Below are positions 1-14,318 of a stretch of 55,875 nucleotides of DNA, in pieces. Within the stretch, counting starts at the first letter, position 1. Each line of letters begins with the position of its first letter. The DNA is from Gammaproteobacteria bacterium (GTDB lineage: Bacteria; Pseudomonadota; Gammaproteobacteria; Steroidobacterales; GCA-2729495), in NCBI GenBank assembly GCA_029245525.1, contig JAQWPD010000074.1, forward strand, positions 1-55,875. The letters run 5' to 3'. The notes under the pieces are model-generated. The model made no database searches, was not told the DNA's origin, and was given only the letters and a program-made list of their open reading frames with translations. Made by a program: the position numbers and the translations under genes.

Positions 1-1430
1 AGATCCGGATACTTAGCCGCACGCACATCGTCGAGACGCCGCACAGGCATGGTCAGCGGCGCGGATTTTAATGCCTCAGGGTCACTGTAAGCCTTATCGC
101 GAATGGCTATCATCGCCTCAACAAAACCATCCAGCTCCTGGATTGATTCCGTCTCAGTTGGCTCGATCAGTAAACATTCTGGCACCAATAACGGGAAATA
201 CGTGGTCGGTGCATGAATTCCTTAGTCCAGTATTGCCTTGGCAAAGTCCATGGCACTAATGCCCGTTTCACGCGTAATTTGCTTAACCGAGATAATAAAT
301 TCGTGGCTTGCGCGCCGCTCAGCGAATGCAATAGTGAAACCAGCCGCGTCCAAGCAGACCATAATATAATTTGCATTTAGCACAGCGTATTCAGACACTC
401 TGCGCATGCCTTCGCCACCCAACATTCGCATGTAGATATAGGCTCGCAACAAAACGCCGACGTTGCCCATAAATGCAGACAAACGACCAATGCTATCGGG
501 GCAATCTTTTTCTGCAGCCCAGCTATAGCCAGAAGCGGTTTTAATAACCAGAGGAATAGGCAAATAGGGGCGCAGACGTTCGCTAACGCCCACAGCGCCA
601 GAGCCCGGGCCACCACCACCGTGCGGTGTAGAAAATGTTTTATGCAGGTTCAGATGAACCACATCGAAGCCCATCGCGCCCGGCGAAGTTCGCCCAAGAA
701 TGGCGTTAAGGTTTGCGCCATCATAATACAGCAGGCCACCAGCAGCATGAACGATGGCAGCTATCTCTTCAATCTGTCGCTCAAAAACCCCGAGCGTTGA
801 TGGATTGGTCAGCATAATGCCGGCTGTTTTTGGTCCAACAGCAGCTTTTAACGCATTAATATCCAAATCACCATCGGCACAGGTGGGTATTTCAACCACC
901 TTGCAACCGCACATGGTGGCAGTTGCCGGGTTTGTGCCATGCGCCGCGTCAGGCACGATAATCTCATTGCGCTCATGATCATTGCGCGCCTTATGATAAG
1001 CCTGAATCATGGCAACGCCGGCCAATTCGCCCTGCGCGCCTGCCATAGGGGTTAGCGAAACACCAGACATGCCAGTGGCTTGCTGCAACATCTCCTGAAG
1101 CTCATACAAACACTCCAGCGTACCCTGTGAAAACTGATCCGGCGCCAAGGGATGACGGCTCAACAACTCTGGCAGCATCGCCAGCGAATTACACGCCTTA
1201 GGGTTGTACTTCATCGTGCATGAGCCCAGCGGGTAAAAATGGGTATCAATTGAGAAATTTAGTTGCGAAAGACGAGTGTAATGACGCACCACCTGCAGTT
1301 CTGACACCGATGGCAAAGCAGGCTTGCTCTTGCGCAAAAACTGCTCAGGCAAATTAGATGCCTCAGGAGCTTTAACAGTAAAACTGCGACCACCATTTGC
1401 GTGATATTCAAAAATGAGTGGCTCAACCAT
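1..1430 (-). pseudogene. gcvPB: Glycine dehydrogenase subunit 2, interrupted by in-frame TAA and cut by window edge
   Basis: PLP-binding subunit of the split P-protein of glycine cleavage, which decarboxylates glycine and passes the aminomethyl group to GcvH. The motif [12 protein letters not shown] lies near residue 66 and the PLP-lysine motif [15 protein letters not shown] near residue 265. The start is the ATG at 1430: AGGAGG (1440-1445) sits 9 nt upstream, and the ATG overlaps the gcvPA stop by 8 nt. An upstream in-frame TTG at 1448 is less likely. A TAA at 222-224 ends the protein after 402 residues. The same frame then continues without a stop to position 3 for 73 codons, reading [15 protein letters not shown] and later [12 protein letters not shown], the normal C-terminus of the family. 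The stop replaces the conserved Tyr of LDYG, so this is a nonsense change and not a frameshift. It is either a real inactivating mutation or a base-call error. Confidence 0.85.
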
Positions 1431-2799
1431 GTTGACGAACCTCCTCAATTGTAAATACCGCCTTCATTGCGGCGACATACTGTCCAATATGTTTCGGTGT
1501 ACGAGTTTCCGTAGCGCATACTAGCAATGCGTTGCCCAACTCAGGGTAAAACTCGCTTAGGTCCACACCACCGAGAATTCCAGTTGCAGCCAATGCATCA
1601 AGCACCGGGGCCACCGGACGATCAAGCAATAACACCGCCTCATGAAACACCGGCGACGTAAATGCACGGGAAATACCCTGAATGGCGCACAAATCTTCAA
1701 TCAGTTGGCGGGTATTCTCATGACTGGCTAGCGCAACACGCCGCAGACCTTCATTACCAAGCAGCGCCATGTAAATAGTTGATGCGGTAACCATCAAGCC
1801 CTGGTTGGTACAAATATTGGAAGTCGCGCGCGAGCGACGAATATGCTGTTCGCGAGCCTGCAAAGTGAGCGTGAAGCCCGGCTTGCCGTCGACATCAACA
1901 GTGCGGCCCACAATACGGCCTGGCATCTGCCGGACTATGTTCTTTCTGCAAACCATGTAGCCATAAAATGGGCCACCGGATGACATGGGCACGCCCAAAG
2001 GCTGCCCTTCACCGCAGGCCACATCAGCACCGGCTTCCCCCCACTCCCCAGGAGGCGTTAGCAGCGATAACGCAAGCGGGTTTGCCACAGCAATGACCAA
2101 TGCGGCTTCAGCATGAGCCCAATTAGTTAGGGCATCAACCTGCTCAAGCGAGCCAAAGAAGTTGGGCTGCTGAATGACCACCGCGGCAAAATCCTGGCCC
2201 GCATGCTCAGCCAACGCTGCGATATCAGTAACGCCATCAAGCATCGGCAAATCAACCAACTCAATGTTCTGACCTCTGACAATATTAAATGCCACTTCGC
2301 GATAGTACGGATGCACCGTGCGCGGCACCAGAATTTTACGTGACTTTGACTTCCGGTTAGCCCGCACGGCCATCAGACAGGCTTCCGCAAATGCGGTGGC
2401 GCCGTCATACAATGAGGCATTGGAAATATCGAGGCCCGTTAACGATGCCATCATCGTTTGATACTCGTAGATAACCTGTAAAGTCCCCTGACTGGCTTCA
2501 GCCTGATAAGGGGTATATGCACTATAAAACTCACCACGAGTGGTCAACTGCCAGACAGCTGCTGGTACAAAGTGATCGTAAGCGCCCGCACCCATAAAAC
2601 AGACCGGACGACCATCGGTATCAGCTCGCTCATGCATAAGCGAACTGATTTCCGACTCACTCATGCCTTCAGGAGCGCCCTGTATCGACTGCATCGTAAG
2701 ATTCGCAGGGATCTCATCAAAAAGGTCATCCAGCGTGTCTGCACCAATGCGTTTAAGCATCGCGGACAGATCATCGGAAGTATGGGGAATAAATGGCAT
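1423..2799 (-). CDS. gcvPA: Glycine dehydrogenase (decarboxylating) subunit 1
   Basis: Alpha subunit of the heterodimeric P-protein; it pairs with GcvPB to form the glycine decarboxylase. At 458 aa it is slightly longer than the roughly 445 aa usual for this subunit. The N-terminus [15 protein letters not shown] and the internal [12 protein letters not shown] and [10 protein letters not shown] segments are typical. It starts at ATG 2799 behind a modest AGGTAG, 67 nt after gcvH, and its TGA overlaps the gcvPB ATG, implying translational coupling. Most gammaproteobacteria I know use one long GcvP chain of about 950 aa, so the split form is notable in this gene neighbourhood. Confidence 0.95.
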
Positions 2800-2866
2800 T
2801 AAATTTCTACCTGAGCAATGAATATCGAGCTACGAGAGCAATATACATCAGTCCTTATTATTGGGT

Positions 2867-3262
2867 TTAATCTTCGAGACCCGATAGGTACTCTTCATAG
2901 GCGATTGTGTCCATTAGCGTCTCAAGCGCGTCCTCACTTTCAGGCGCAATCCGGAACAACCACCCACCCTCATGGGGATTTGTATTAACTAATTCAGGCT
3001 CATCAGCCAGGTTGTTATTTACATCCGTTATTGACCCGCTCAACGGGCAATAGACATCGCTTGCTGCTTTTACTGATTCAACGACAGCACACGCATCACC
3101 TTTATTGAACACCTGACCCTCTTCAGGAAGCTCGACAAATACCAGCTCACCTAACGCACTCTGCGCATGATCAGTAATACCGACTGTAATTAAGCCATCT
3201 CCTTCAACACGCAGCCATTCGTGGTCTTCCGTGTATTTGAGGTCTTCAGGTATTTCAGACAT
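2867..3262 (-). CDS. gcvH: Glycine cleavage system H protein
   Basis: Lipoyl carrier that shuttles the aminomethyl intermediate between the P, T and L proteins in the cytoplasm. The protein has 131 aa, close to the E. coli 129. The lipoylation site is Lys65 in VESVKAAS, and YTEDHEWLRVE is the usual N-terminal block. The start is the ATG at 3262, with GGAGAG just upstream, rather than the longer frame opening at 3289. It is the second gene of the riboswitch-controlled operon, 56 nt after gcvT. Confidence 0.96.
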   Translation of the reverse strand: MSEIPEDLKYTEDHEWLRVEGDGLITVGITDHAQSALGELVFVELPEEGQVFNKGDACAVVESVKAASDVYCPLSGSITDVNNNLADEPELVNTNPHEGGWLFRIAPESEDALETLMDTIAYEEYLSGLED

Positions 3263-3318
3263 CGTTTTTCTCTCCGGGTTGTGTATCAAGTTGTATTGAA
3301 CTAAGCGATCGGCGCCGG

Positions 3319-4407
3319 CTATATAATTATTTGAATTTTTCCGTTCCGAACGAACGGCGTTTGCACAATACTTGCATCAATGTGCTTACCCCGAATCTCG
3401 ACCTTACAATCTGCACCAGCGCCCACAGGAACCCTCGCCAGAGCTATTGAGCGCTCCATGCTCGGTGAAAAACCGCCACTGGTAATCGCACCATCACCAG
3501 CAGGGGTAGTTACACGCTGATCGTGGCGCATAATACCGCGTCCACGCAAGATTAAACCGACAAACTTTTCACCAATGCCCGCCTCACGCTCGGCTTCCAG
3601 CGCGGCTCGCCCGACAAAGTTACGGTCAGCAGGCGCCCACGCCACCGTCCAGCCCAAACCACTCACCAGCGGTGATACAGAAGCGTTCATATCCTGACCA
3701 TAAAGATTCATGGCAGCCTCAAGGCGCAGCGTATCACGAGCACCCAAACCGCATGGCCGAATGCCCGCAGCAATAAATTCGTTCCACCAAGCCACAGCAA
3801 GGTCAGCAGGAATAACCAGCTCCCAACCGTCCTCACCGGTATAACCGGTGCGGGCCACAAAAACACCATCAGCTTCGGCTGCCTGAAAGGGCTCCAGCAC
3901 CGCCGCATCAGCTCGCAAAGAAGCCGGTATCACTGAGCCCGCCAAAGCAATCGCTTGCGGGCCCTGCACTGCAAGCATTGCATAGTCTTTTGCTGGAACT
4001 ATGTTGGCGGAAAAACCCTTCACCACCTCGGCCATCCATGCAATATCGGCATCACGGGTAGCTGCATTCACAACAACCCGATAGTTTTCATCACTGCGGC
4101 GATAAACAATGAGATCGTCAATTACACCACCCTGCTCATTCAGCATGCAGCTGTACAAACCTTTGCCGGGTTTCTTCAGCTTAGCCACATCATTCGCCAA
4201 TAGATGCTGCAAATACGCTTTTGCTTCGGTACCTAAGATATCAACTACCGTCATATGCGATACATCGAAAATACCTGCGCTCTGTCGCACGGCATGATGT
4301 TCGTCTATCTGCGAGCCGTAGTGCAATGGCATATCCCAGCCGCCGAAATCAACAATCTTTGCACCGGCATCAACATGAACCTGATAAAGGGGGGTGCGCA
4401 TACCCAT
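3319..4407 (-). CDS. gcvT: Glycine cleavage system T protein (aminomethyltransferase)
   Basis: Transfers the methylene group from aminomethyl-GcvH to tetrahydrofolate and releases ammonia. The protein has 362 aa (E. coli 364) and opens MGMRTPLYQVHVDAGAKIV. The conserved VDFGGWDMPLHYGSQ, FDVSHM and RTGYTGEDGWEL blocks are present. Either ATG 4407 or ATG 4401 could start it; 4407 has AGGA 6 nt upstream. The frame stays open further upstream, but that part lies over the riboswitch and terminator and is not protein. It is the first gene of gcvT-gcvH-gcvPA-gcvPB. Confidence 0.95.
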   Translation of the reverse strand: MGMRTPLYQVHVDAGAKIVDFGGWDMPLHYGSQIDEHHAVRQSAGIFDVSHMTVVDILGTEAKAYLQHLLANDVAKLKKPGKGLYSCMLNEQGGVIDDLIVYRRSDENYRVVVNAATRDADIAWMAEVVKGFSANIVPAKDYAMLAVQGPQAIALAGSVIPASLRADAAVLEPFQAAEADGVFVARTGYTGEDGWELVIPADLAVAWWNEFIAAGIRPCGLGARDTLRLEAAMNLYGQDMNASVSPLVSGLGWTVAWAPADRNFVGRAALEAEREAGIGEKFVGLILRGRGIMRHDQRVTTPAGDGAITSGGFSPSMERSIALARVPVGAGADCKVEIRGKHIDASIVQTPFVRNGKIQIII

Positions 4408-4484
4408 AACTATTCCTGCAAGTGTTGCCGGAGCAAAAGCGCCGACAGTGCCGATATCTGAAAGCAGTTCAGAATCGTAAAACG

Positions 4485-4520
4485 AAAAAAGGCGGCAGCT
4501 GCCCATTGGCAGCTGCCGCC
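4485..4520 (-). terminator. Intrinsic terminator of the glycine riboswitch expression platform
   Basis: Perfect 13-bp stem: GGCGGCAGCTGCC at 4491-4503 pairs with 4508-4520 across a 4-nt loop. Read on the minus strand it is followed by six Ts (4485-4490). It lies directly after the second glycine aptamer and about 80 nt before gcvT, where a riboswitch-controlled terminator is expected. Confidence 0.93.
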
Positions 4521-4730
4521 CCTCTGTCCTGTAACCTGAGAGATCGGGCACCTCAGGCCCTTAGGCCGATGCCTCACCCCTTCGGTGGACCGGTCTTGCC
4601 GATCGCTCTCCAGAGCCAACCATTGCGTCGCAATTCCTTGTGCCTGAGCGTTTCCGAGCGTGTTGCGCCTTCGGCGACCGCAGCAAGCGCTGAATTAACA
4701 GACCGTGCAGTTCTCTCATGCGACCCTTAA
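4519..4730 (-). promoter_or_regulatory. Tandem glycine riboswitch (two aptamers)
   Basis: Two successive glycine aptamers can be read on the minus strand. The first contains ATGAGAGAACTGC, GCCGAAGGCGCAA and CTCAGGCACAAGGA (about 4640-4725). The second contains CTCTGGAGAG, ACCGAAGGGGTGAGGC and CTCAGGTTACAGGACAGAGG (about 4520-4620). The outer stem of the second aptamer (CTCTG/CAGAG) abuts the terminator stem. By analogy with known gcv riboswitches, glycine binding should favour read-through into gcvT; the direction of control is inferred. Confidence 0.93.
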
Positions 4731-4742
4731 GGTTGAGATTTC

Positions 4743-4770
4743 ATTTTAACTTACCAGACGCGGCCCGCAA
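4743..4770 (-). promoter_or_regulatory. Predicted sigma-70 promoter of the gcv operon
   Basis: On the minus strand TTGCGG (4765-4770) is followed after 16 nt by TAAAAT (4743-4748). The predicted start falls about a dozen bases before the first aptamer. Confidence 0.55.
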
Positions 4771-4771
4771 G

Positions 4772-6025
4772 CTATTGACGCTTTGCCACCTTCGGTAGGT
4801 CTCCGGCCCTGCCCAACGCATGCTCAGCAAACGCTCGCTTAGCAGGCTCTATTGCATTCACCAGAGCAAGGCCTTGCCCGCCAATCTTTGCCAAACGACC
4901 GTCGGCAGCACTGGGATTTCCCGCAAAAACACGGTGCAGCACATTCATCATGCTCAACGTCAACTCGTTGTCGCGTCGACGCCAGCGTGCATAACGACGC
5001 AAAATAAGCGGGTCGCCCGGATCAGCATACTGAGCAGGCATATTGCTAGCGAGAGTCTCTGCAAGAGCCGCGGCATCGAGAAACCCAAGGTTTACCCCCT
5101 GACCCGCCAACGGATGAACCCTATGGGCGGCATCACCGACCAGCGCAAAGCGCAAACCTGAATAACTGTCTGCATGAGCATACGCCAATGGGAATGCCAC
5201 TCGCGGCGTTGCGCATTGCAAGTCGCCAAGCACTGCTTCCGTCGCCTCGGTAAGCCGAATTGAAAAGGCTGTATCATCAAGTGCCAACAACTCATCGGCG
5301 AGCGCATCGGCGCACGACCAGACCAGGGAACAACGGCCATCCTTAAGCGGCAACAAGGCCACCGGGCCTGTCGCCAAAAATCGCTGGTAAGCAATGCCCT
5401 GGTGCGGCTTCTCCGTAATAATATTTGCCACTATCCCCCGCTGTGAATACGCACCACCATCAACTTGGACATTGAGTAACTCTCGTAGATCTGAGTTGGC
5501 ACCATCAGCAGCCACCAGCAAACGTGCACTTACCACACTGGCGTCTGACAACACCAATTCAGCACCGTCTTCACTAATGCTTAGTGACTCAGGTGAGGCT
5601 GGCGGCACTATATCGATAGCCGGAGCCGCAAGTGCCTGTTCCCACAGCGCTTTACGCAGAAGATCATTTTCGACAATGAAACCCAGTTCACGGACACTCA
5701 ACTCAGCTGCAGAAAACTCCAGAGCATGATCGAACGACCCGGATGTTGAGCTATGCCAAACATACATTCCGGAATACGGACTCACTCGTTGCGCCACAAC
5801 AGAAGACCACACTCCCAATGACTCAAGAATACAGACACTGGCGGGAGATAAAGCAGACACTCTGAGGCTCATATCAGGCAATGAATCACTTGAAAGCAAT
5901 GCCGGCGGACGGGCCTCAACGATTGCGATGCGCAACTGCTGCGATACTGCGGCATCCAATAATAAAGCTGCGCTCAAGCCAACGAGTCCGCCGCCAACAA
6001 TCACAACATCATAAGAATCACTCAT
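4772..6025 (-). CDS. ubiI: 2-octaprenylphenol hydroxylase-type FAD monooxygenase UbiI (VisC)
   Basis: Flavoprotein monooxygenase that adds the first ring hydroxyl (C5) in ubiquinone synthesis. The protein has 417 aa. An N-terminal Rossmann motif VVIVGGGLVGLS binds FAD, the second motif LVAADGANS lies mid-chain, and VGDAAHRVHPLAGQGVNLG lies near residue 295. The GDAAH form of the last motif fits UbiI, whereas the upstream paralogue has the UbiH form. The ATG at 6025 overlaps the ubiH stop by one base (TGATG); a GTG at 6028 is the alternative. The order pepP-ubiH-ubiI-gcvT matches E. coli. Confidence 0.9.
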   Translation of the reverse strand: MSDSYDVVIVGGGLVGLSAALLLDAAVSQQLRIAIVEARPPALLSSDSLPDMSLRVSALSPASVCILESLGVWSSVVAQRVSPYSGMYVWHSSTSGSFDHALEFSAAELSVRELGFIVENDLLRKALWEQALAAPAIDIVPPASPESLSISEDGAELVLSDASVVSARLLVAADGANSDLRELLNVQVDGGAYSQRGIVANIITEKPHQGIAYQRFLATGPVALLPLKDGRCSLVWSCADALADELLALDDTAFSIRLTEATEAVLGDLQCATPRVAFPLAYAHADSYSGLRFALVGDAAHRVHPLAGQGVNLGFLDAAALAETLASNMPAQYADPGDPLILRRYARWRRRDNELTLSMMNVLHRVFAGNPSAADGRLAKIGGQGLALVNAIEPAKRAFAEHALGRAGDLPKVAKRQ

Positions 6026-7314
6026 CACTCGAACCCGGATGCTCTTATGCCGCGGGCCAGGCGCGAAAGTCTGCCACCCTGACCCATTGCGTAACGTGCC
6101 AGCTCGCGCTTCGCCGCAGGCAGTATATCGAAACCTAACAAACTTAAACCGCGCGCGATGCTTACAGCACCACCGGGCTTGGCGAATAATTCAATCAGCC
6201 CGTCGGTAAAGCTGACAACATTGCGCTGATCTGCGTGACGCCACTCACAATACGCAGACTGAATACCTTCAAGATCTGCATTCAATTGATCTGTGGCTGA
6301 CACCCCAGCTGACCCAGAGGCAATAGCATCAGTAATTAATTCTGCCAAGGCTGCAGCGTCCCGCAAACCGAGATTGAAGCCTTGGCCCGCAACGGGATGC
6401 AGCCCATGTGCCGCATTGCCGACAATAATTGTCCGTTCGGCAGTTAAAGACTCGGCAGTTGATAAGTACAAGGGGTATGCGAATCGACGACCCAGGTTTC
6501 TAAACACGCCCACACGATAGCCGAACAACTCCTGCAACAAGGCGCGCATAGCGTCATCGCTCAATGCCAGAGTGGCATCAACCTCGTCGGTATTGCGGGT
6601 AAGCACAAACGTATAAACACCATCAGCACCCGGCAACAAAGCCAGGGGGCCCGCAGAGGTAAAACGTTCGTAGGCAACATTACCTGCATAGCGCAGGTCA
6701 ATGCTCACATTACCAATAATGGCACTTTGTCCATACGATTTATGCTGGGCCACCACACCAAGCTGCTCACGCACCGCCGAGCGAGCGCCGTCAGCAACCA
6801 CCAGCAAGGCGCCCGAAATACTCACCGGCACTTGCTGCTCCACATTAACCGTAACACCGGTTGAAGCAGCAGCTGCAGCGCCAACACGCGCCGGACAAAA
6901 CACATCTATCGCCGAACATTCACTTAAGCGATCCCACAAACTACGGCCTAAAATACGGCTCTTAATAACGTGACCCAGATGGTCAATGCCCTGTTCACCG
7001 GCATTAATGACAGCACTGCCAAAACGCCCTTTCTCAGACACATGAATTTCATCAATAGGCCAAGCTGTGGCATCGATATCAGGCCACAAATCAAGTGCAT
7101 TCAATATGGATTTACTGCTGCGCGATAACGCAATGCTGCGCTCATCGAAACTGGAGTTTTCGGTGTCATCGGGCAACACCGCTTCAACCAATGCAATACG
7201 CAGCGGCAAGTCCGCAAGTGCAATCGCCAGGCTGGCGCCCACCAAACCGCCACCAGAAATAATAATGTCGTAATCATTCGAGGCCACGACTGCTGGTACG
7301 ACCAAATCAGACAA
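6025..7314 (-). CDS. ubiH: 2-octaprenyl-6-methoxyphenol hydroxylase UbiH
   Basis: FAD monooxygenase for the C1 hydroxylation of the ubiquinone ring. The protein has 429 aa. It shows the FAD motif IIISGGGLVGAS, the mid-chain VVADGARSAVR and VGNAAHGLHPVAGQGFNLG; the GNAA form with GQGFNLG is characteristic of UbiH. No ATG lies near the N-terminus: the best start is TTG at 7314, with GAGG upstream inside the pepP 3' end, giving an 8-nt overlap. It is a tandem paralogue of ubiI. Confidence 0.9.
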   Translation of the reverse strand: MSDLVVPAVVASNDYDIIISGGGLVGASLAIALADLPLRIALVEAVLPDDTENSSFDERSIALSRSSKSILNALDLWPDIDATAWPIDEIHVSEKGRFGSAVINAGEQGIDHLGHVIKSRILGRSLWDRLSECSAIDVFCPARVGAAAAASTGVTVNVEQQVPVSISGALLVVADGARSAVREQLGVVAQHKSYGQSAIIGNVSIDLRYAGNVAYERFTSAGPLALLPGADGVYTFVLTRNTDEVDATLALSDDAMRALLQELFGYRVGVFRNLGRRFAYPLYLSTAESLTAERTIIVGNAAHGLHPVAGQGFNLGLRDAAALAELITDAIASGSAGVSATDQLNADLEGIQSAYCEWRHADQRNVVSFTDGLIELFAKPGGAVSIARGLSLLGFDILPAAKRELARYAMGQGGRLSRLARGIRASGFE

Positions 7315-8626
7315 GTTGCTTGCCCTCAGACATCAAAGCCTCTATCGCCTCTGCCTCCACCGGCAATGCTCTTGTCAAAACCTCACATCCATCGCGGGTC
7401 ACCAAGACGTCATCTTCTATACGGATGCCGATACCGCGGTAGCACTTCTTCACGCGGCGATGTTGTTCGGAGATATAGATACCCGGCTCAACGGTAAGCA
7501 TCATGCCAGGCTCAAGCATTCGCCATTGGTCTGCCACACGATAATCTCCAACATCATGCACATCCATACCCAGCCAGTGTCCGGTGCGATGCATAAAAAA
7601 CGGTCTATACGCCTCCTTTCTAATAAGGTCGGCCAAACGGCCTTTTAGAATACCGAGATCCTTGAGGCCACGAGTAATCTCTACTACTGCAGCATCATGA
7701 AATTCATGCCATGAAAGACCCGGCGCAATATGCTCAATCGCTGCTTCGTGGGCACGCAAAACCACATCATAAATTTCGCGCTGGGGGGCGCTGAATTTAC
7801 CATTCACGGGAAATGTTCTGGTAACGTCGGCTGCATAACAATCAACTTCACAGCCGGCATCAATGAGCACCAGATCGCCATCTTCCATTTGTCGATCGTT
7901 GTCGTTGTAATGAAGCACACAACCGTTAGCTGCCGAACCCACAATAGGGTTATACGAGTGCTGCAATCCATTGCGCCGGAACTCATAGCCAACTTCAGCC
8001 TCAAGTTCGTATTCAAACATGCCGGGAGTAGCAGCGCGCATTGCTCGCGCATGACCGGCAGCAGCGACCTTAGCCGCCCTCCGCATAGCACTAATCTCGG
8101 CACGACTCTTATACATACGCATATCATGCAGCATGTGATCCATCGCAACAAAATCTTCCCGTGGATGCGCAGCCGGACCGGACTGCGCACGCAATGCTGT
8201 AACCCAATTAATCAGGCGGCTATCAAACTCCGGATGCGCACCCATGGTGTAATAGACCCCCTCACAGCTTTCAATAAGGCCAGGCAAAATATCGTCGGTA
8301 TCGGCTATTGGAAAAGCATCATCTGCTTCGTACTCTGCGACCGCACCTTCGGGGCCGGCACGATACCCGTCCCAGGTTTCACGAAGGGGGTCTTTCTCAC
8401 GACAAAACAACAGGTACTCGCCCTCCGGCCGGCCGGGGACTAGTACGGCAATCGCATCGGGTTCGGAAAAGCCAGTGAGATACATAAAATCACTGTCCTG
8501 ACGAAACGGGTACTCAACATCACGATTTCGTAGCCGAGTATTCGCCGAGGGCAATATAGCAATACTATTCTTGCCCATCATCCTCATTAGCTGTCGTCTG
8601 CGCTTCGCAAATTCCTTTTGATTCAT
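7307..8626 (-). CDS. pepP: Xaa-Pro aminopeptidase PepP (M24B)
   Basis: Dimanganese exopeptidase that removes N-terminal residues preceding proline. The protein has 439 aa (E. coli 441). The metal ligands are visible in order: Asp in LIDAGCEVDC, Asp in ADVTRTFP, His in MHRTGHWLGMDVHD, Glu in LTVEPGIYI and Glu in IRIEDDVLV. The N-terminal domain has the usual YLTGFSEPDA block. I chose ATG 8626 (MNQKEFAKRR) over the longer frame from 8665 by comparison with the family; its ribosome site is weak. It overlaps ubiH. Confidence 0.95.
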   Translation of the reverse strand: MNQKEFAKRRRQLMRMMGKNSIAILPSANTRLRNRDVEYPFRQDSDFMYLTGFSEPDAIAVLVPGRPEGEYLLFCREKDPLRETWDGYRAGPEGAVAEYEADDAFPIADTDDILPGLIESCEGVYYTMGAHPEFDSRLINWVTALRAQSGPAAHPREDFVAMDHMLHDMRMYKSRAEISAMRRAAKVAAAGHARAMRAATPGMFEYELEAEVGYEFRRNGLQHSYNPIVGSAANGCVLHYNDNDRQMEDGDLVLIDAGCEVDCYAADVTRTFPVNGKFSAPQREIYDVVLRAHEAAIEHIAPGLSWHEFHDAAVVEITRGLKDLGILKGRLADLIRKEAYRPFFMHRTGHWLGMDVHDVGDYRVADQWRMLEPGMMLTVEPGIYISEQHRRVKKCYRGIGIRIEDDVLVTRDGCEVLTRALPVEAEAIEALMSEGKQLV

Positions 8627-8700
8627 TACTGTTTCTACTAAAAAATAAATACTAAACAGTGGCAACGCAGATACCGGTATAAGTTATGCCACCGCATCAC

Positions 8701-9300
8701 TTAATGCTTAAGATCTGCACTGCTGCTGCCCCGGAGGTCAAGGCTATCCTCAAAAATCAGCAGCGCGCTAATGCGCACATACTCGGATAATTCAAAGAAC
8801 TCATTCTCAGCTTGGTTCAGCTCCGCCGCATCGGCCCCTTCAACATCAACTGCTGCCCGAGTTATCTCCACAAAGTCTGCAATGATCTCTTTTGCCACTT
8901 CTGATTCCAGAACCTTAGCTGCTTCCTCACCCTGATTGCCAATCGCAATACCGTGCATAAAGCCCTGACACCACATCGCAAGGCTCTCGGTGCGATCATG
9001 CAAGGACTCATCATCAGTCGGCAACAACAACCTGAAATCCATCTGGCCACCTTCTAGCATTGCGAAACTCGTCAGAGCAACCTGTCCGAGAAGTTTTGCG
9101 GCTTGGGCCACTTGGGCTGTCTGCGTATCAGATTCGCCCAGAGTCTCCTTCAGCCAAACTGCTCCGGCATGGGGCCCTAGAAGCACAGCAGCACCACAAA
9201 AGCTGCCATGAATCTCTGCAGCACAGGCACCAAGACCCGCGAACTCCAGCGCCAAAGTCAGTTCAGCGGAATCCGGAAGCGCACCAACAGCCATTGCCAT
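8701..9300 (-). CDS. ygfB: UPF0149 family protein YgfB
   Basis: Small acidic protein of the YgfB/YecA (UPF0149) family, 199 aa, near the E. coli 192-194. MWCQGFMHGIAI and FFELSEYVRISALLIF are family blocks. It sits just upstream of pepP, as in enterobacteria and pseudomonads, and divergent from the zapA side. In Pseudomonas YgfB has been linked to control of beta-lactamase expression; nothing here shows that role. It starts at ATG 9300 with AAGGG 6 nt upstream; a second ATG lies at 9294. Confidence 0.88.
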   Translation of the reverse strand: MAMAVGALPDSAELTLALEFAGLGACAAEIHGSFCGAAVLLGPHAGAVWLKETLGESDTQTAQVAQAAKLLGQVALTSFAMLEGGQMDFRLLLPTDDESLHDRTESLAMWCQGFMHGIAIGNQGEEAAKVLESEVAKEIIADFVEITRAAVDVEGADAAELNQAENEFFELSEYVRISALLIFEDSLDLRGSSSADLKH

Positions 9301-9412
9301 AGCAAACCCTTAAGTATTTAAATCCAATTGGAAGCCTTGTATCTTATCATCCCAGCCCGATTCGGGTCGTCAATATCTGCCTCACTATTGGCCGGACCAC
9401 AATGCAAATTAT

Positions 9413-9442
9413 TTGACCGTAGGGGACAGCACGCACTATATT
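9413..9442 (+). promoter_or_regulatory. Predicted promoter of the TIGR02449-zapA operon
   Basis: TTGACC (9413-9418), an 18-nt spacer, then TATATT (9437-9442). The expected transcription start is about 9449, which is the A of the next ATG, so the message may be leaderless. No Shine-Dalgarno sequence precedes that ATG. Confidence 0.6.
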
Positions 9443-9448
9443 TAGACC

Positions 9449-9679
9449 ATGCCTCAAGAAATCGACCAGACCTTTATTCAGGAGCTCCAGCGCCTCGGCA
9501 AGCGCGTGGATGAACTCGTTGTTATCTGCAGTCAGCTAAAAGAGGAGAATCGGTCTCTAAAAGACCGGCAGGATTCACTCATTGCTGACCGAGCGACCCT
9601 GCTGCAAAAGAATGAACAAGTAAGAGCTCGTGTAGAAGCAATGATAGGAAGACTAAAAGCTATGGAGACTGGATCATGA
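9449..9679 (+). CDS. TIGR02449 family coiled-coil protein (ZapB-like)
   Basis: A 76-aa, highly charged protein predicted to be almost entirely coiled coil, with heptad-like leucines through ELVVICSQLKEENRSLKDR and further on. It matches the small TIGR02449 family that sits before zapA in pseudomonads and relatives. A role in Z-ring assembly alongside ZapA is plausible from position and from resemblance to ZapB, but is inference. Its stop overlaps the zapA ATG by 4 nt (ATGA). The promoter position suggests a leaderless start. Confidence 0.8.
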   Translation: MPQEIDQTFIQELQRLGKRVDELVVICSQLKEENRSLKDRQDSLIADRATLLQKNEQVRARVEAMIGRLKAMETGS

Positions 9680-9984
9680 GCATTACCGAGGTTCATGTGA
9701 AAATTCTTGAAAAAGAGTTCCAGCTTGGCTGCTCTGCTGAGGAACGAGGGGACTTGCTAGATTCTGTCGAGCTGCTAAATAGTCGAATGCGGGAAATCCG
9801 CGACGGCGGAAAAGTGAGCGGTATCGATAAAATTGCTATTCTCGCCGCGCTTAATATTGCTAACGAACTGATTAAGTCTCGCGGCAAAGAGCATGCGCTA
9901 GAAACAGATGCGAAAAAGAAAGTCCAGACCATCCGCGAACAAGTTGAGACGGCTCTGCAATCCAGCCAACAGCTCGAATTCTAA
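9676..9984 (+). CDS. zapA: Cell division protein ZapA
   Basis: Cytoplasmic FtsZ-bundling protein of the Z ring. The protein has 102 aa (E. coli 109): an N-terminal beta/alpha head (VHVKILEKEFQLGCSAEER) and a C-terminal coiled coil. DKIAILAALNIANELI is the typical central helix. It is translationally coupled to the preceding small coiled-coil gene and followed by 6S RNA, the conserved gammaproteobacterial order. Confidence 0.93.
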   Translation: MSITEVHVKILEKEFQLGCSAEERGDLLDSVELLNSRMREIRDGGKVSGIDKIAILAALNIANELIKSRGKEHALETDAKKKVQTIREQVETALQSSQQLEF

Positions 9985-10049
9985 GCCGGTTCTTTCACTC
10001 AAATTTTGATAACGACCTCTCTACAAAGCGAAAGGTTTTCTGTTATCTT

Positions 10050-10240
10050 AGGATCTGCCTCCTGCGGTGTTCGATAAGGACCTGGATCCCTCGACCCTAA
10101 CTATTAGATCGGGGTTGGGCACTGCAGAAAGTTTTGTGCATTACCGCGTTAAGCGGGCAGCCTATACTCCCTGCGACCGACCCCACTTGTTGCTCCGGTT
10201 CGAGAGCAACGGTTCTACCGGCACAGGCGGGAGGCACCTC
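10050..10240 (+). ncRNA. ssrS: 6S RNA
   Basis: Regulatory RNA that mimics an open promoter and sequesters sigma-70 RNA polymerase. The ends pair (GCCTCC at 10057-10062 with GGAGGC at 10230-10235), and further complementary blocks flank an internal bubble, giving one long rod of about 190 nt. Its place between zapA and fau (ygfA) is the classic 6S location. Exact ends are estimated. TATCTT at 10044-10049 could be the -10 element; I see no convincing -35. Confidence 0.88.
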
Positions 10241-10406
10241 CTTCTAGCTCAGCGCAATAAGATATCGCTGACGAGCACTTTCAAAATGCTTATTGTCACA
10301 ACACAAAAATAAAAACTCGTTAGGTGTTAAAAAAATATTAGGCTGTTCAGCCTTTAATAATAAAAACTATACGTCATCGGCCTCACTTAAATACATCACC
10401 TTAATA

Positions 10407-10997
10407 ATGCACCAACAACCACCACCAAACATCGACCTACGCCATCGCTTGAAAACGCAGCGCCGGCAACTGAGCGAACAGCAGATCGGTGAAACTGCTG
10501 CTTCAGTTAATCGGCAACTTTGGAAACTTCCTGAACTTGCTCGTGGCAATCGTATCGGTTGCTACCTAAGCGTTAATGGAGAGGTAAATTGTGACGAATT
10601 TATCCGCTCAGCATGGATGCGCAAAAAGCGCATATTTGTGCCCATTTTGCGCAAAAGTGGCATGGGTTTTTTCCAACTTAATGACGATGATTCGCTCCAA
10701 AACAATCGTTTTGGTATCCCAGAGCCCCTCCCCAAAACCAGCGCTTATCTCTCGGCAAAAAACCTGGACATCATTCTGCTGCCACTACTTGGGTTTGACT
10801 CAAAAGGAAATCGGCTTGGCATGGGCGGAGGTTATTATGATCGCCTTCTTGCCTTCACAACAGCTCGTAGCAGATTTCGGCGGCCGCTTCTAATCGGCTT
10901 GGGGTATGACTTTCAGCGGGCAGAGGCGCTTAAGAAGAACAATTGGGACATACCCATGCACCTGATTGTCACACACGGGAAGACTTATAGGTTTTAG
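10407..10997 (+). CDS. fau: 5-formyltetrahydrofolate cyclo-ligase
   Basis: ATP-dependent enzyme converting 5-formyl-THF to 5,10-methenyl-THF (YgfA/MTHFS). The protein has 196 aa from ATG 10407. The family signature LLPLLGFDSKGNRLGMGGGY carries the nucleotide/metal-binding glycine loop, followed by YYDRLL, and KKRIFVPIL lies mid-chain. An in-frame TTG at 10293 would add 38 poorly conserved residues and lies close to 6S RNA, so I reject it. It is likely co-transcribed with 6S RNA. Confidence 0.93.
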   Translation: MHQQPPPNIDLRHRLKTQRRQLSEQQIGETAASVNRQLWKLPELARGNRIGCYLSVNGEVNCDEFIRSAWMRKKRIFVPILRKSGMGFFQLNDDDSLQNNRFGIPEPLPKTSAYLSAKNLDIILLPLLGFDSKGNRLGMGGGYYDRLLAFTTARSRFRRPLLIGLGYDFQRAEALKKNNWDIPMHLIVTHGKTYRF

Positions 10998-11148
10998 TTG
11001 CAAAGAATGAAAAAAAGTCCGGGATAATGAAGAGAAATCAGATCAACTGACCCCAATTACTCCGTTTCCAAAATACCCGCACAACGCTAACAAGCATTTT
11101 TTACAAACGCCTTTCCGAAACATGCAGTCCACACGGAAATCCTTGTGT

Positions 11149-11177
11149 TTGTGGAATTTTATCGACTTTTATATATA
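11149..11177 (+). promoter_or_regulatory. Predicted promoter of the histone-like gene
   Basis: TTGTGG (11149-11154), 17-nt spacer, TATATA (11172-11177); an alternative -10, TATACT, lies at 11174-11179. Confidence 0.45.
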
Positions 11178-11214
11178 CTCAATCGCGGTTACCCCGACAC
11201 TAGGAGACTGTGAT

Positions 11215-11529
11215 ATGGCTGCTAAAAAGAAAGCCGCAAAGAAGAAAGCTGCTACCAAGACAAAGGTAGTTCGTAAGGCACGCAAGAAAGCCGCACCTAA
11301 AAAGGCGTCTAAGAAGGCTGCCAAATAGAAAGTAGCGAAAAAAGCTTCGAAGAAAAAAGCTTCGAAGAAAAAAGCTAAAAAGAAAGTAGCCAAGAAAAAG
11401 GCTAAAAAGAAAGCTGCGAAGAAAAAAGCTTCTAAGAAGAAATCTTCTAAGAAGAAAGTAGCGAAAAAGGCTTCTAAAAAGAAAGCCAAGAAAAAAGCGA
11501 AGAAGAAAGCGAAGAAAAAGGCCAGATAA
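11215..11529 (+). pseudogene. Lysine/alanine-repeat histone H1-like protein, split by in-frame TAG
   Basis: ATG 11215 has GGAG upstream and opens MAAKKKAAKKKAATKTKV. It is a basic repeat protein of the bacterial H1-like/AlgP C-terminal kind, presumed to bind DNA. A TAG at 11326-11328 ends it after 37 residues. The same frame then runs on for 66 more codons of the same KKA, KKAS and KKAK repeats to a TAA at 11527-11529. TAG sits where the repeat pattern calls for AAG (Lys), so one base change explains it. The downstream part has no start codon of its own. The gene would be 104 codons if the stop were sense. A read-through product cannot be excluded. A strong terminator follows. Confidence 0.75.
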
Positions 11530-11596
11530 AGCCTCTAAGGCTTGGTCTTAATCGAGCTACCATCTGCGGCAGCAATGTTGATGGTAATCGCTATAA

Positions 11597-11626
11597 ATAT
11601 GCCCGCCTTGTGCGGGCATATTTTTT
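11597..11626 (+). terminator. Intrinsic terminator after the histone-like gene
   Basis: Perfect 10-bp stem ATATGCCCGC/GCGGGCATAT (11597-11606 and 11612-11621), 5-nt loop, then a T run. Confidence 0.9.
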
Positions 11627-11690
11627 GCCTGAGATTGCGCCCCAGCATTAAGTTTGCTTGACTATGTTCATATAACTCTTTCGCTGTGCG

Positions 11691-11696
11691 TATAAT
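11691..11696 (+). promoter_or_regulatory. Consensus -10 box upstream of rpiA
   Basis: Exact TATAAT, 23 nt before the rpiA ATG. The -35 region is poor, so either an activator or a weak promoter is possible. Confidence 0.45.
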
Positions 11697-11719
11697 CTTC
11701 CCCTAGGAGAATCCCCTCA

Positions 11720-12379
11720 ATGAGCCAAAATGAAGAGAAACGCGAAGCGGCTTCTGCCGCTCTTGAATTTATCAAGCCTGGCTGTGCGCTTGGCGTAGGT
11801 ACAGGATCAACTGTCAATTATCTGATTGATGCGCTACCAGCGGTAAAAGACAAGATTCAAAGCATTGTTTCCAGCTCCGTTGATTCGACCAAACGGCTGC
11901 GCAGTATTGGCTTTGAAGTCTCGGAACTTGCTGAGGTCGGGCATTGCGACTTATATATCGATGGGGCCGACGAAGCCAACAAACACTTTCAGCTTATTAA
12001 AGGCGGCGGTGGAGCACTAACTCGAGAAAAAGTGATTGCCGCAGCGTCACGAAAATTTGTTTGTATTATTGACCAAACGAAGATGGTCGGTGTTCTTGGC
12101 GCTTTTCCACTACCGATCGAAGTTATCCCAATGGCACGCTCGTATGTCGCGCGGGAAATTATTAAGTATCGGGGACAGCCAGTCTTCCGAGAAGGCTTTA
12201 TGACAGATAATGGCAATCAGATTATTGACGTTCACAACTTAAGCATCACCAATCCAATCGAAATTGAATCAAGAATCAGCCTAATACCCGGCGTAGTCAC
12301 AGTAGGGCTGTTCTGTCACCGGCCCGCAGACGTGCTGTTAATAGGAGCACCGGATGGCGTGAAGTGCCATGAACGTTAG
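11720..12379 (+). CDS. rpiA: Ribose-5-phosphate isomerase A
   Basis: Interconverts ribose-5-phosphate and ribulose-5-phosphate in the pentose phosphate pathway. The protein has 219 aa, as in E. coli. [33 protein letters not shown] and TREKV hold the phosphate-binding and catalytic residues. It starts at ATG 11720 behind AGGAGA. It converges on tRNA-Gln and shares a palindromic terminator with it. The partner enzyme Rpe is encoded about 4 kb away. Confidence 0.96.
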
Positions 12380-12446
12380 GCTGATTGCAAAAACTCATGC
12401 TTTAATGCATCAACCACATAAAATCGCTACTCTGGTAAGCAGACAG

Positions 12447-12490
12447 CCATAATAAAAAAGCCCGCATTGTTGCGGGCTTTTTTATTATGG
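12447..12490. terminator. Bidirectional terminator, perfect 20-bp palindromic arms
   Basis: A 44-nt element between rpiA and tRNA-Gln: left arm 12447-12466, loop TTGT 12467-12470, right arm 12471-12490, with perfect complementarity. The GC core GCCCGCA/TGCGGGC is flanked by A and T runs, so it can terminate either strand. The outer three bases of the right arm are the genomic CCA end of the tRNA. Confidence 0.92.
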
Positions 12491-12561
12491 CTGGGGGAGA
12501 GGGATTCGAACCCCCGCTGGCGGTGTCAGAGACCGCAGTCCTACCACTAGACGATCCCCCA
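12488..12561 (-). tRNA. glnX: tRNA-Gln (anticodon CUG)
   Basis: A 74-nt cloverleaf on the minus strand. Acceptor stem TGGGGGA/TCCCCCA with the U1-A72 pair typical of tRNA-Gln; D arm GTCTAGTGGTAGGAC; anticodon stem GCGGT/ACCGC around loop CTCTGAC; T loop TTCGAAT; discriminator G; encoded CCA. It reads CAG codons. It lies 31 nt after rpsI on the same strand, so it is probably co-transcribed with rplM-rpsI. Confidence 0.93.
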
Positions 12562-12566
12562 AAATA

Positions 12567-12580
12567 CGGGGTAATCCCCG
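12567..12580 (-). promoter_or_regulatory. Small hairpin between rpsI and tRNA-Gln
   Basis: CGGGG/CCCCG stem with a 4-nt loop, followed on the minus strand by TATTTT and then the tRNA 5' end. It may be a processing signal or a leaky attenuator between the ribosomal genes and the tRNA. Confidence 0.45.
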
Positions 12581-12592
12581 GACGCAGTATGA

Positions 12593-12985
12593 TTAACGCT
12601 TCGAGAACTGAGTCGCGCGACGTGCTTTGCGAAGACCAACTTTCTTACGTTCAACTTCACGTGCATCACGGGTAACAAATCCAGCGGCACGAAGGGGCTG
12701 ACGCAATGACTCATCAGACTGCATCAGCGCACGGGTCAACCCATGACGAATCGCGCCGGCCTGTCCGGTTGTGCCACCACCTTTTACAGTGGCTGTCACA
12801 TCAAACTTACCTTCCGCACCTGCTACTTGCAGAGCCTGACGCACAATCATACGCGCTGTTTCGCGACCAAAGAAGTTATCGATAGGCTTACCGTTAACAA
12901 TGATGGCGCCGGTACCAGGGCGTGCATAAACACGTGCTGTTGATCTCTTTCGGCGACCAGTGCCGTAATAAACTTGTTCACTCAT
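12593..12985 (-). CDS. rpsI: 30S ribosomal protein S9
   Basis: Small-subunit protein whose basic C-terminal tail reaches the P-site tRNA. The protein has 130 aa, as in E. coli. [14 protein letters not shown] opens it, and it ends in RRATQFSKR, the conserved tail. It is the second gene of the rplM-rpsI operon, 18 nt after rplM. Confidence 0.98.
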
Positions 12986-13003
12986 GAGTTATCCTGTGCC
13001 TGT

Positions 13004-13438
13004 TTAGGCTTGTATTTCTAAAGGCTGAGGCTGCTGAGCAACATGAGCGTGCTCGGGGCCTGCAAACACGCGCATTTTCTTAGCCATCGCACGACCCAGG
13101 CTGTTCTTAGGCAGCATGCCCTTAACTGCCAGAGTTAATACCCGCTCAGGCTTCTCAGCGAGCATTGTTCCAAGATCAACCGTTTTTAGGTGACCGACAT
13201 ACCCTGTATGGTGGTGGTACAACTTGCCCTCTAGTTTGTTGCCCGTTACGCGGATCTTAGCTGCATTAATAACCACGATATAGTCGCCGGTATCAACATG
13301 TGGGGTATATACAGGCTTGTGCTTGCCACGCAGACGCAAGGCAAGTTCTGTCGCGAGACGCCCCAAGGTCTTGTCAGTTGCGTCAACAACATACCAGCTG
13401 CGTTGAACCTCAGCGGGTTTTGCGGAAAAAGTCTTCAT
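13004..13438 (-). CDS. rplM: 50S ribosomal protein L13
   Basis: Early-assembling large-subunit protein. The protein has 144 aa (E. coli 142). [33 protein letters not shown] and [11 protein letters not shown] are family blocks. In E. coli L13 represses its own operon through the rplM leader; this leader also has strong secondary structure. Confidence 0.98.
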
Positions 13439-13476
13439 TGATAGTGCCCTCAGGGCTCCGAATCTATTGTTCTGCT

Positions 13477-13490
13477 GCGGGCATGCCCGC
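13477..13490. repeat. 14-bp palindrome in the rplM leader
   Basis: GCGGGCATGCCCGC is perfectly self-complementary and lies in the untranslated leader, about 40 nt before rplM. A second small inverted repeat, GCCC-TCA-GGGC (13446-13456), is closer to the ATG. Both could form a regulatory structure for L13. Confidence 0.5.
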
Positions 13491-13503
13491 CGAAAGGTGC
13501 GCC

Positions 13504-13532
13504 ATAATACTGATGTTTAGGCTGCATTTCAA
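13504..13532 (-). promoter_or_regulatory. Predicted strong promoter of rplM-rpsI
   Basis: Minus strand TTGAAA (13527-13532), a 17-nt spacer, TATTAT (13504-13509). This is near-consensus with ideal spacing and leaves a leader of about 60 nt. Confidence 0.72.
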
Positions 13533-13551
13533 CGGCTGAACCCTATTTCCA

Positions 13552-13582
13552 CCAAGAATCGCTTCATTATCGCGATTCTTGG
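13552..13582 (-). terminator. Hairpin after the DUF481 gene
   Basis: 11-bp stem CCAAGAATCGC/GCGATTCTTGG (13552-13562 and 13572-13582) just downstream of the DUF481 stop on the minus strand. No U tract follows, so it may be an inefficient or Rho-assisted terminator. Confidence 0.45.
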
Positions 13583-13595
13583 TTAAGTGCTTGTT

Positions 13596-14318
13596 TTAGA
13601 ACTCGTAATCAAGACCAATAGAAGTAATGGTGTCGGTTTTCTTTTTTCCGGGGACGACATCGGTATTGTTCTGGTAGGTAAACGAGACCGCTAGACCCAG
13701 ACTTCCTACGATTGCCAAACGCAATGAAGTCACCGCTTCGGTAAAGGTATTACTGCTACCAGCGGAAACTTGTATGGTTTGTGAAAACTTAGACGTATCG
13801 GTAATTTGCCAGTCATATTCGCCATACAATCGAAAAATAGCTTCGCTAATATCCTCGTTTACAATAGTTTTCGATTGGCTCCAACCACCACCAATTTCAG
13901 CGTCAAGCTCGTGCTTTTTATTCTTAATAATCCTACGACCGTATGCCAGAGTCGCAAAACGTTGGTAATCATAACTACTGAAACGATCGCGCTGCCAGTT
14001 CAAGCGCCCTACGCCATAGTTGAACTCCGAAAAATCGTATTTGCTGCTCCACGACAACTGATAGTTTTCGGCTGTTGCGTCATTATCTTGGCTCGAAGAG
14101 AAAAATCTACCACTCAGGCCATGATGCCAGCGAACTAAATCATAGTTCACACCAAACTCAAAGTTAGCCGACTTACTTTCCGTATTGCCGCTTGTCGCAA
14201 GATAACCCAAAGTGGTATTACCCGACCATGGTCCCTTATTTTCCTCTTGATCCTCAGCATTAGACGTCAATGCTGCCAACAGCAGAATGCTCGAAAAAAC
14301 TATTTTTTTTGCCCACAT
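13596..14318 (-). CDS. DUF481 family outer membrane protein
   Basis: Predicted outer-membrane beta-barrel, 240 aa. The signal peptide is MWAKKIVFSSILLLAALTS, followed by a short acidic stretch. The barrel has alternating-hydrophobicity strands (TTLGYLATSGNTESKSANFE is the DUF481 hallmark) and ends in Phe, as exported barrels do. Relatives such as YdiY are called salt-induced outer membrane proteins; the function is unknown. It starts at ATG 14318 with AAGG upstream; an in-frame start at 14345 would spoil the signal peptide. It is monocistronic and divergent from coq7. Confidence 0.85.
   Translation of the reverse strand: MWAKKIVFSSILLLAALTSNAEDQEENKGPWSGNTTLGYLATSGNTESKSANFEFGVNYDLVRWHHGLSGRFFSSSQDNDATAENYQLSWSSKYDFSEFNYGVGRLNWQRDRFSSYDYQRFATLAYGRRIIKNKKHELDAEIGGGWSQSKTIVNEDISEAIFRLYGEYDWQITDTSKFSQTIQVSAGSSNTFTEAVTSLRLAIVGSLGLAVSFTYQNNTDVVPGKKKTDTITSIGLDYEF

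Follow-up and report, generated by a model that had tools for sequence, protein, structure and literature searches.

A premature stop codon in a lysine-repeat gene

We found that a long lysine-repeat, histone-H1-like gene is interrupted by TAG at codon 38, probably as a young A-to-T nonsense allele that gives a short polycation. The gene lies in contig JAQWPD010000074.1 of a Gammaproteobacteria bacterium (assembly GCA_029245525.1), of which we analysed a stretch of 55,875 nucleotides, hereafter the window. On the forward strand, ATG at 11215 is in frame with TAG at 11326-11328. The head (11215-11325) comprises 37 codons with 18 lysine or arginine (K/R) residues and no aspartate or glutamate, and the tail (11329-11526) comprises 66 in-frame codons with 42 K/R, up to TAA at 11527-11529. 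The first-pass annotation had described a lysine-repeat gene split by an in-frame TAG that replaces an expected AAG. Both points were confirmed, the latter by an orthologue alignment with a syntenic gene of the same genus (G002), which has AAG at this position and shares the final TAA. The annotation was also right that the downstream half has no start codon: ATG, GTG and TTG are absent from the tail in any frame, as are CTG, ATA, ATC and ATT in the gene's own frame. An internal start in the tail is thus ruled out, as is a frameshift around TAG, because the other two frames hold several stops within the gene.

Across all six frames of the window, this TAG is the only stop flanked on either side by 30 codons that include at least 10 lysines. 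Lysine accounts for 57 of the 103 sense codons, each of them one A-to-T change away from a stop, and 60 of the 927 possible single-base changes (6.5%) would create a stop codon, as compared to 3.6% in a set of 16 large window ORFs. A gene so rich in lysine is a large target for nonsense mutations, and the one seen here is of the cheapest kind.

The intact copy in a congener and the age of the TAG

One contig of G002 is syntenic with positions 1-14272 of the window, and its copy of the gene is open over 141 codons (141 aa), so that the in-frame stop stands where the orthologue has a sense codon. Apart from the TAG itself and a single gap of 37 codons (111 nt), 8 of the 103 aligned codons differ: the head carries two synonymous and two nonsynonymous differences in 37 codons, and the tail one synonymous and three nonsynonymous differences in 66. 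The gap corresponds to a block that is present in G002 and missing from the window gene. The polarity of the mutation rests mainly on this one congener; in G001, which is the third genome of this genus and 72% complete, neither rpiA nor the leader described below was matched.

The conservation is concentrated in the lysine-repeat unit. Between 11140 and 11559, identity to G002 is 93-100% per 60 bases, as compared to 67-92% between the 6S RNA and the unit and 73-93% beyond 11620 (for example, 91 of 120 bases match in 11620-11739). At the rate of that last stretch, an unconstrained tail would be expected to have collected about 24 changes since the split in the window lineage alone, whereas 4 are seen in both lineages together, so either the TAG arose recently or the tail continues to be used. 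With strong conservation on both sides of it, the TAG is probably of recent origin, as far as the alignment goes. The 6S RNA itself lies at 10056-10237, and a 120-nt identical run ending at 10240 is the longest shared with G002 in the compared stretch.

Substitution rates were estimated by two methods. NG86 gave dN 0.021 and dS 0.049 for the lysine-repeat gene (103 codons). The corresponding dS was 0.163-0.653 for 12 ORFs of the neighbourhood and 0.171-0.339 for seven presumed ribosomal-protein ORFs, two of nine such pairs having been dropped as probably spurious overlapping ORFs (dS 0.152 and 0.026). YN00 gave dN 0.149 and dS 0.011 for the same gene. Since the two methods disagree, we make no claim about selection from dN/dS and use the raw difference counts alone.

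In the rpiA tree, the window groups with G002 (support 100/100), and next to this pair stand the genera g5 and g9 (support 86/81), in which the complete orthologues are 82-174 aa long. All six complete orthologues in genera grouping with that of the window are long (82-174 aa), so the long form is likely to be ancestral for the window gene, judging from the tree.

A wrong base is the next explanation to consider, namely one that came from assembly, sequencing or possibly a minority strain, in which case most of the resident population would have the lysine codon. The event is an ordinary one, either a young nonsense allele or a base call that the reads would put right. The genome (2,279,664 bases, 98% complete) is in 123 contigs, and the base sits inside a repeat array, where short-read assembly is weakest and where the window also differs from G002 by the 111-nt block. 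The TAG allele, searched as a 29-base pattern, had no copies in viral_contigs, which is a poor place to look, and no second genome of the species was found. Nevertheless, the surrounding sequence does not look damaged: in 12 neighbouring ORFs compared with G002, no disruption survived inspection. Stop columns appeared in two of these comparisons, one in the ORF at 7307-8665, which tblastn matches cleanly over residues 8-452, and three in fau, where the G002 match begins only at residue 35 of a TTG-extended ORF and the true start is probably downstream of this TTG. We consider a wrong base unlikely.

One leader and peptides of 20 to 174 residues

The gene belongs to a family with a conserved setting. 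A promoter-like element, TTGTGGAATTTT ... TATATATACTC, is found at 11149-11180 on the forward strand by positional alignment of 35 orthologues; its consensus is TTGCTGGaAtTTT and TTGTATATACTC, several columns agree in all 35, and it is identical in G002, although a generic sigma-70 promoter scan did not call it. It is followed at 11181-11214 by a conserved leader, CGGTTACCCCGACAC, with a GGAGA ribosome-binding site, which stands after GACA in 35/35 orthologues. The strongly conserved pattern over 11149-11214, TTGCTGGaAtTTT...TTGTATATACTC...GGTTA..CC.GACA..GGAGA, thus precedes lysine-rich ORFs of 20-174 aa. Of the 40 family genomes, 35 have such an ORF preceded by this leader, the shared leader being partly a search condition, since loci were gathered via leader or rpiA matches. 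Neither a leader-linked ORF nor an rpiA match was found in G001, G021, G030, G061 and G062; as rpiA goes undetected too, assembly gaps may explain these absences. In a sample of 196 genomes of the order, the leader was matched in 40, some of them outside the family; this count is a minimum, because the search missed family members known to carry it.

The neighbours are equally constant. The gene for 5-formyltetrahydrofolate cyclo-ligase (fau; 10293-10997, forward strand) lies upstream on the same strand in 35/35 loci, and rpiA (11720-12379, forward strand) lies downstream on the same strand in 33/35, being on another contig in the two loci whose contig ends; both end in TAG in the window. The distance from stop to rpiA is 108-235 nt in 31 loci, 392 nt from the TAG of the window and 1785 nt in G004. 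Other RNA features of the window are a tRNA-Gln gene (anticodon CTG; 12488-12561, reverse strand) just behind rpiA and a match to the glycine riboswitch aptamer at 4621-4730 (reverse strand).

It is in length that the family varies. The 33 complete orthologues, not counting the window and G013, which is cut by a contig end, comprise 13 of 20-35 aa, one of 57 aa and 19 of 82-174 aa, and the statement of the first-pass annotation that repeat genes of this kind vary quickly is thus well borne out. The 37-residue head falls inside this natural range. The short forms occur in the genera g4 and g8, in separate parts of the rpiA tree, where G026 (g8) groups with G004 (g3, 105 aa); none of the natural short genes has a long lysine-rich continuation behind its stop. 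In G006, a TAG at codon 87 of the orthologue (L038, contig C92) removes the C-terminal six residues, ASRRRR, which are followed by TAA and form an ending seen in relatives. The family thus has another premature stop, though a far milder one, and G006 is the only orthologue that resembles the window. The window genome also holds a second lysine-rich gene (L064, contig C79), an open stretch of 354 residues whose N-terminal half is rich in lysine and whose C-terminal part we take to resemble DksA/TraR.

The coding sequences are poor in slippery heptamers. In-phase A_AAA_AAR occurs twice in 35 ORFs, whereas a mean of 48.6 (range 35-67) is expected from 300 permutations of the lysine codons within each gene; the copies are non-independent because of repeats and relatedness, and the deficit is clear gene by gene in some genes only.

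Given this variety, the 37-aa peptide could be the proper, selected product of the gene, like the mostly 20-35-aa orthologues of g4 and g8. The short orthologues keep the leader and GGAGA, they lie in two separate parts of the tree, and their 13-19 K/R enclose the 18 of the head; among the g4 24-mers, G012 differs from G034 or G060 by three synonymous and no nonsynonymous changes. However, G032 differs from the others by seven nonsynonymous and 1-3 synonymous changes, so the short peptides are not uniformly constrained, and the tail of the window gene is undecayed while the congener is long.

The position of the terminator also counts against this reading. An intrinsic-terminator-like hairpin, ATATGCCCGC-CTTGT-GCGGGCATAT with a T run, lies at 11597-11627 on the forward strand and has counterparts in G002 and 24 other orthologues. 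By a strict rule, a terminator is found within 260 nt of the stop in 25 of 35 loci, and in these its stem begins 34-77 nt past the stop; in the 8 of 13 natural short genes that have one, this distance is 65-77 nt. The window stem starts 67 nt past the TAA and 268 nt past the TAG. This spacing fits the TAA and not the TAG, so the window gene is not simply another settled short form, a reading that we regard as improbable. The first-pass annotation had allowed for a live truncation and had named relatives with the same short protein under selection as evidence against an interrupted gene. A live truncation is indeed plausible, and short relatives do exist, but the terminator sets them apart from the window gene.

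TAG as a stop codon and the case for read-through

TAG is read as a stop in this organism. The genome encodes release factor 1, whose profile match of 542.8 bits exceeds the cut-off of 423.25. Of the 16 large window ORFs chosen for comparison, 8 stop at TAG, and the 33 complete orthologues end in TAG (26), TAA (6) or TGA (1). No CTA anticodon was found among the 33 tRNA genes, all of them typed, in a set that is incomplete, an alanine tRNA being unseen. Reassignment of the stop codon is ruled out by these observations.

The suggestion of the first-pass annotation that the tail may be reached by read-through found no positive support. A functional read-through of UAG, giving a long minor form alongside the 37-aa form, would explain the lack of tail decay relative to G002 equally well, and this lack counts against a young truncation. 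The sequence after the TAG is also predicted to fold stably (-35 kcal/mol, z -4.4 against dinucleotide shuffles, 0/200 as stable), and a stable fold 3' of a stop is a feature sometimes linked to recoding. Against synonymous permutations, a control that is imperfect because of the tandem repeats, folding of the tail has z -2.9 (2/100 as stable) and that of the head +0.3; the tail further has no in-phase A_AAA_AAR heptamer where 3.7 are expected. However, the same hairpin sequence stands behind AAG in G002, and when the tail (11329-11526) is taken together with 19 long orthologues, 17 of the 20 genes have coding RNA that folds more stably than permuted synonymous versions, at z of -2 or lower. 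The hairpin thus predates the TAG, and neither it nor the family-wide folding arose for read-through; the excess folding is perhaps a by-product of repeats with self-complementary codon pairs. An Rfam search of the unit gave three sub-threshold matches, which we take as chance. The heptamer deficit shows past translation, not present translation. In addition to release factor 1 and the anticodon result, no other orthologue has a long lysine-rich continuation past its stop: a conserved stop with an extension occurs in 0 of the 33 complete orthologues, the nearest case being the six residues of G006. Read-through is accordingly the least probable of the readings, and we think it very improbable.

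A possible fate of the short product

If the TAG is a young nonsense allele, transcription would proceed from the conserved leader, and ribosomes would start behind the conserved GGAGA and make the 37-residue polycation. They would be released at the TAG via release factor 1, leaving the 66-codon tail transcribed but silent. The short product may still bind nucleic acid or some other polyanion, though less strongly than the full-length protein, and such residual binding would explain the persistence of the allele, natural orthologues being as short as 20 residues. As its 18 K/R lie inside the range of the natural 20-35-aa peptides, the 37-aa product is likely to keep partial function, by analogy with them.

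A bolder reading is that a single ancient gene encodes the polycation between fau and rpiA, with length as an evolvable dial that is set between 20 and 174 residues by repeat gain and loss and, in the window, by a point nonsense change. The TAG would then be a live, adaptive shortening caught before deletion of the tail, an intermediate on a path completed by g4 and g8. We put this forward tentatively and think it rather unlikely.

Taken alone, the TAG is a nonsense change of the ordinary sort, in a gene where a single step turns more than half of the codons into stops. The allele has some value as a natural experiment, since it would show whether losing two thirds of the chain at once can be tolerated. 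The length-variable family, in which a lysine-rich peptide under one conserved leader is 20 or 174 residues long, is a better lead than the TAG itself, and it would lend itself to a test of how binding to DNA, RNA or polyphosphate depends on chain length.

Comparison with known lysine-rich repeat proteins

Among CC-licensed papers in PubMed Central, we recognised none on such a gene beside rpiA. In composition, the family is like the Burkholderia-type histone H1-like protein (NF038053), to which one orthologue gave a weak match of 14.9 bits (cut-off 80 bits), while the G002 protein was unmatched at E up to 1 and the window halves at E up to 0.1.

Parallels are also offered by two other systems. 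AlgP of Pseudomonas aeruginosa has a helical N-terminal domain of 124 aa followed by KPAA repeats, which form a basic, repetitive, disordered H1-like stretch whose repeat number varies among clinical isolates and whose loss impairs the spacing of polyphosphate granules (PMC9239181). The window gene shares the basic, repetitive H1-like sequence, but it begins directly with lysine-rich sequence and has no KPAA unit. Hc2 (hctB) of Chlamydia is described as a protein of 165-237 aa with 36-aa elements, which changes its length by in-frame gain and loss of repeats (PMC2848022). The Hc2 profile (PF07382) left the window halves and the G002 protein unmatched and gave 13.7 bits for one orthologue (cut-off 40), and the lysine-repeat orthologues, unlike Hc2, go down to 20 aa. 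From composition and by analogy with AlgP and Hc2, the peptides of the family may bind DNA, RNA or polyphosphate. With Hc2 and similar proteins of Bordetella and related genera, the family has in common its lysine-rich repeats and a block-wise change of length, one 37-codon block being what separates the window gene from that of G002.
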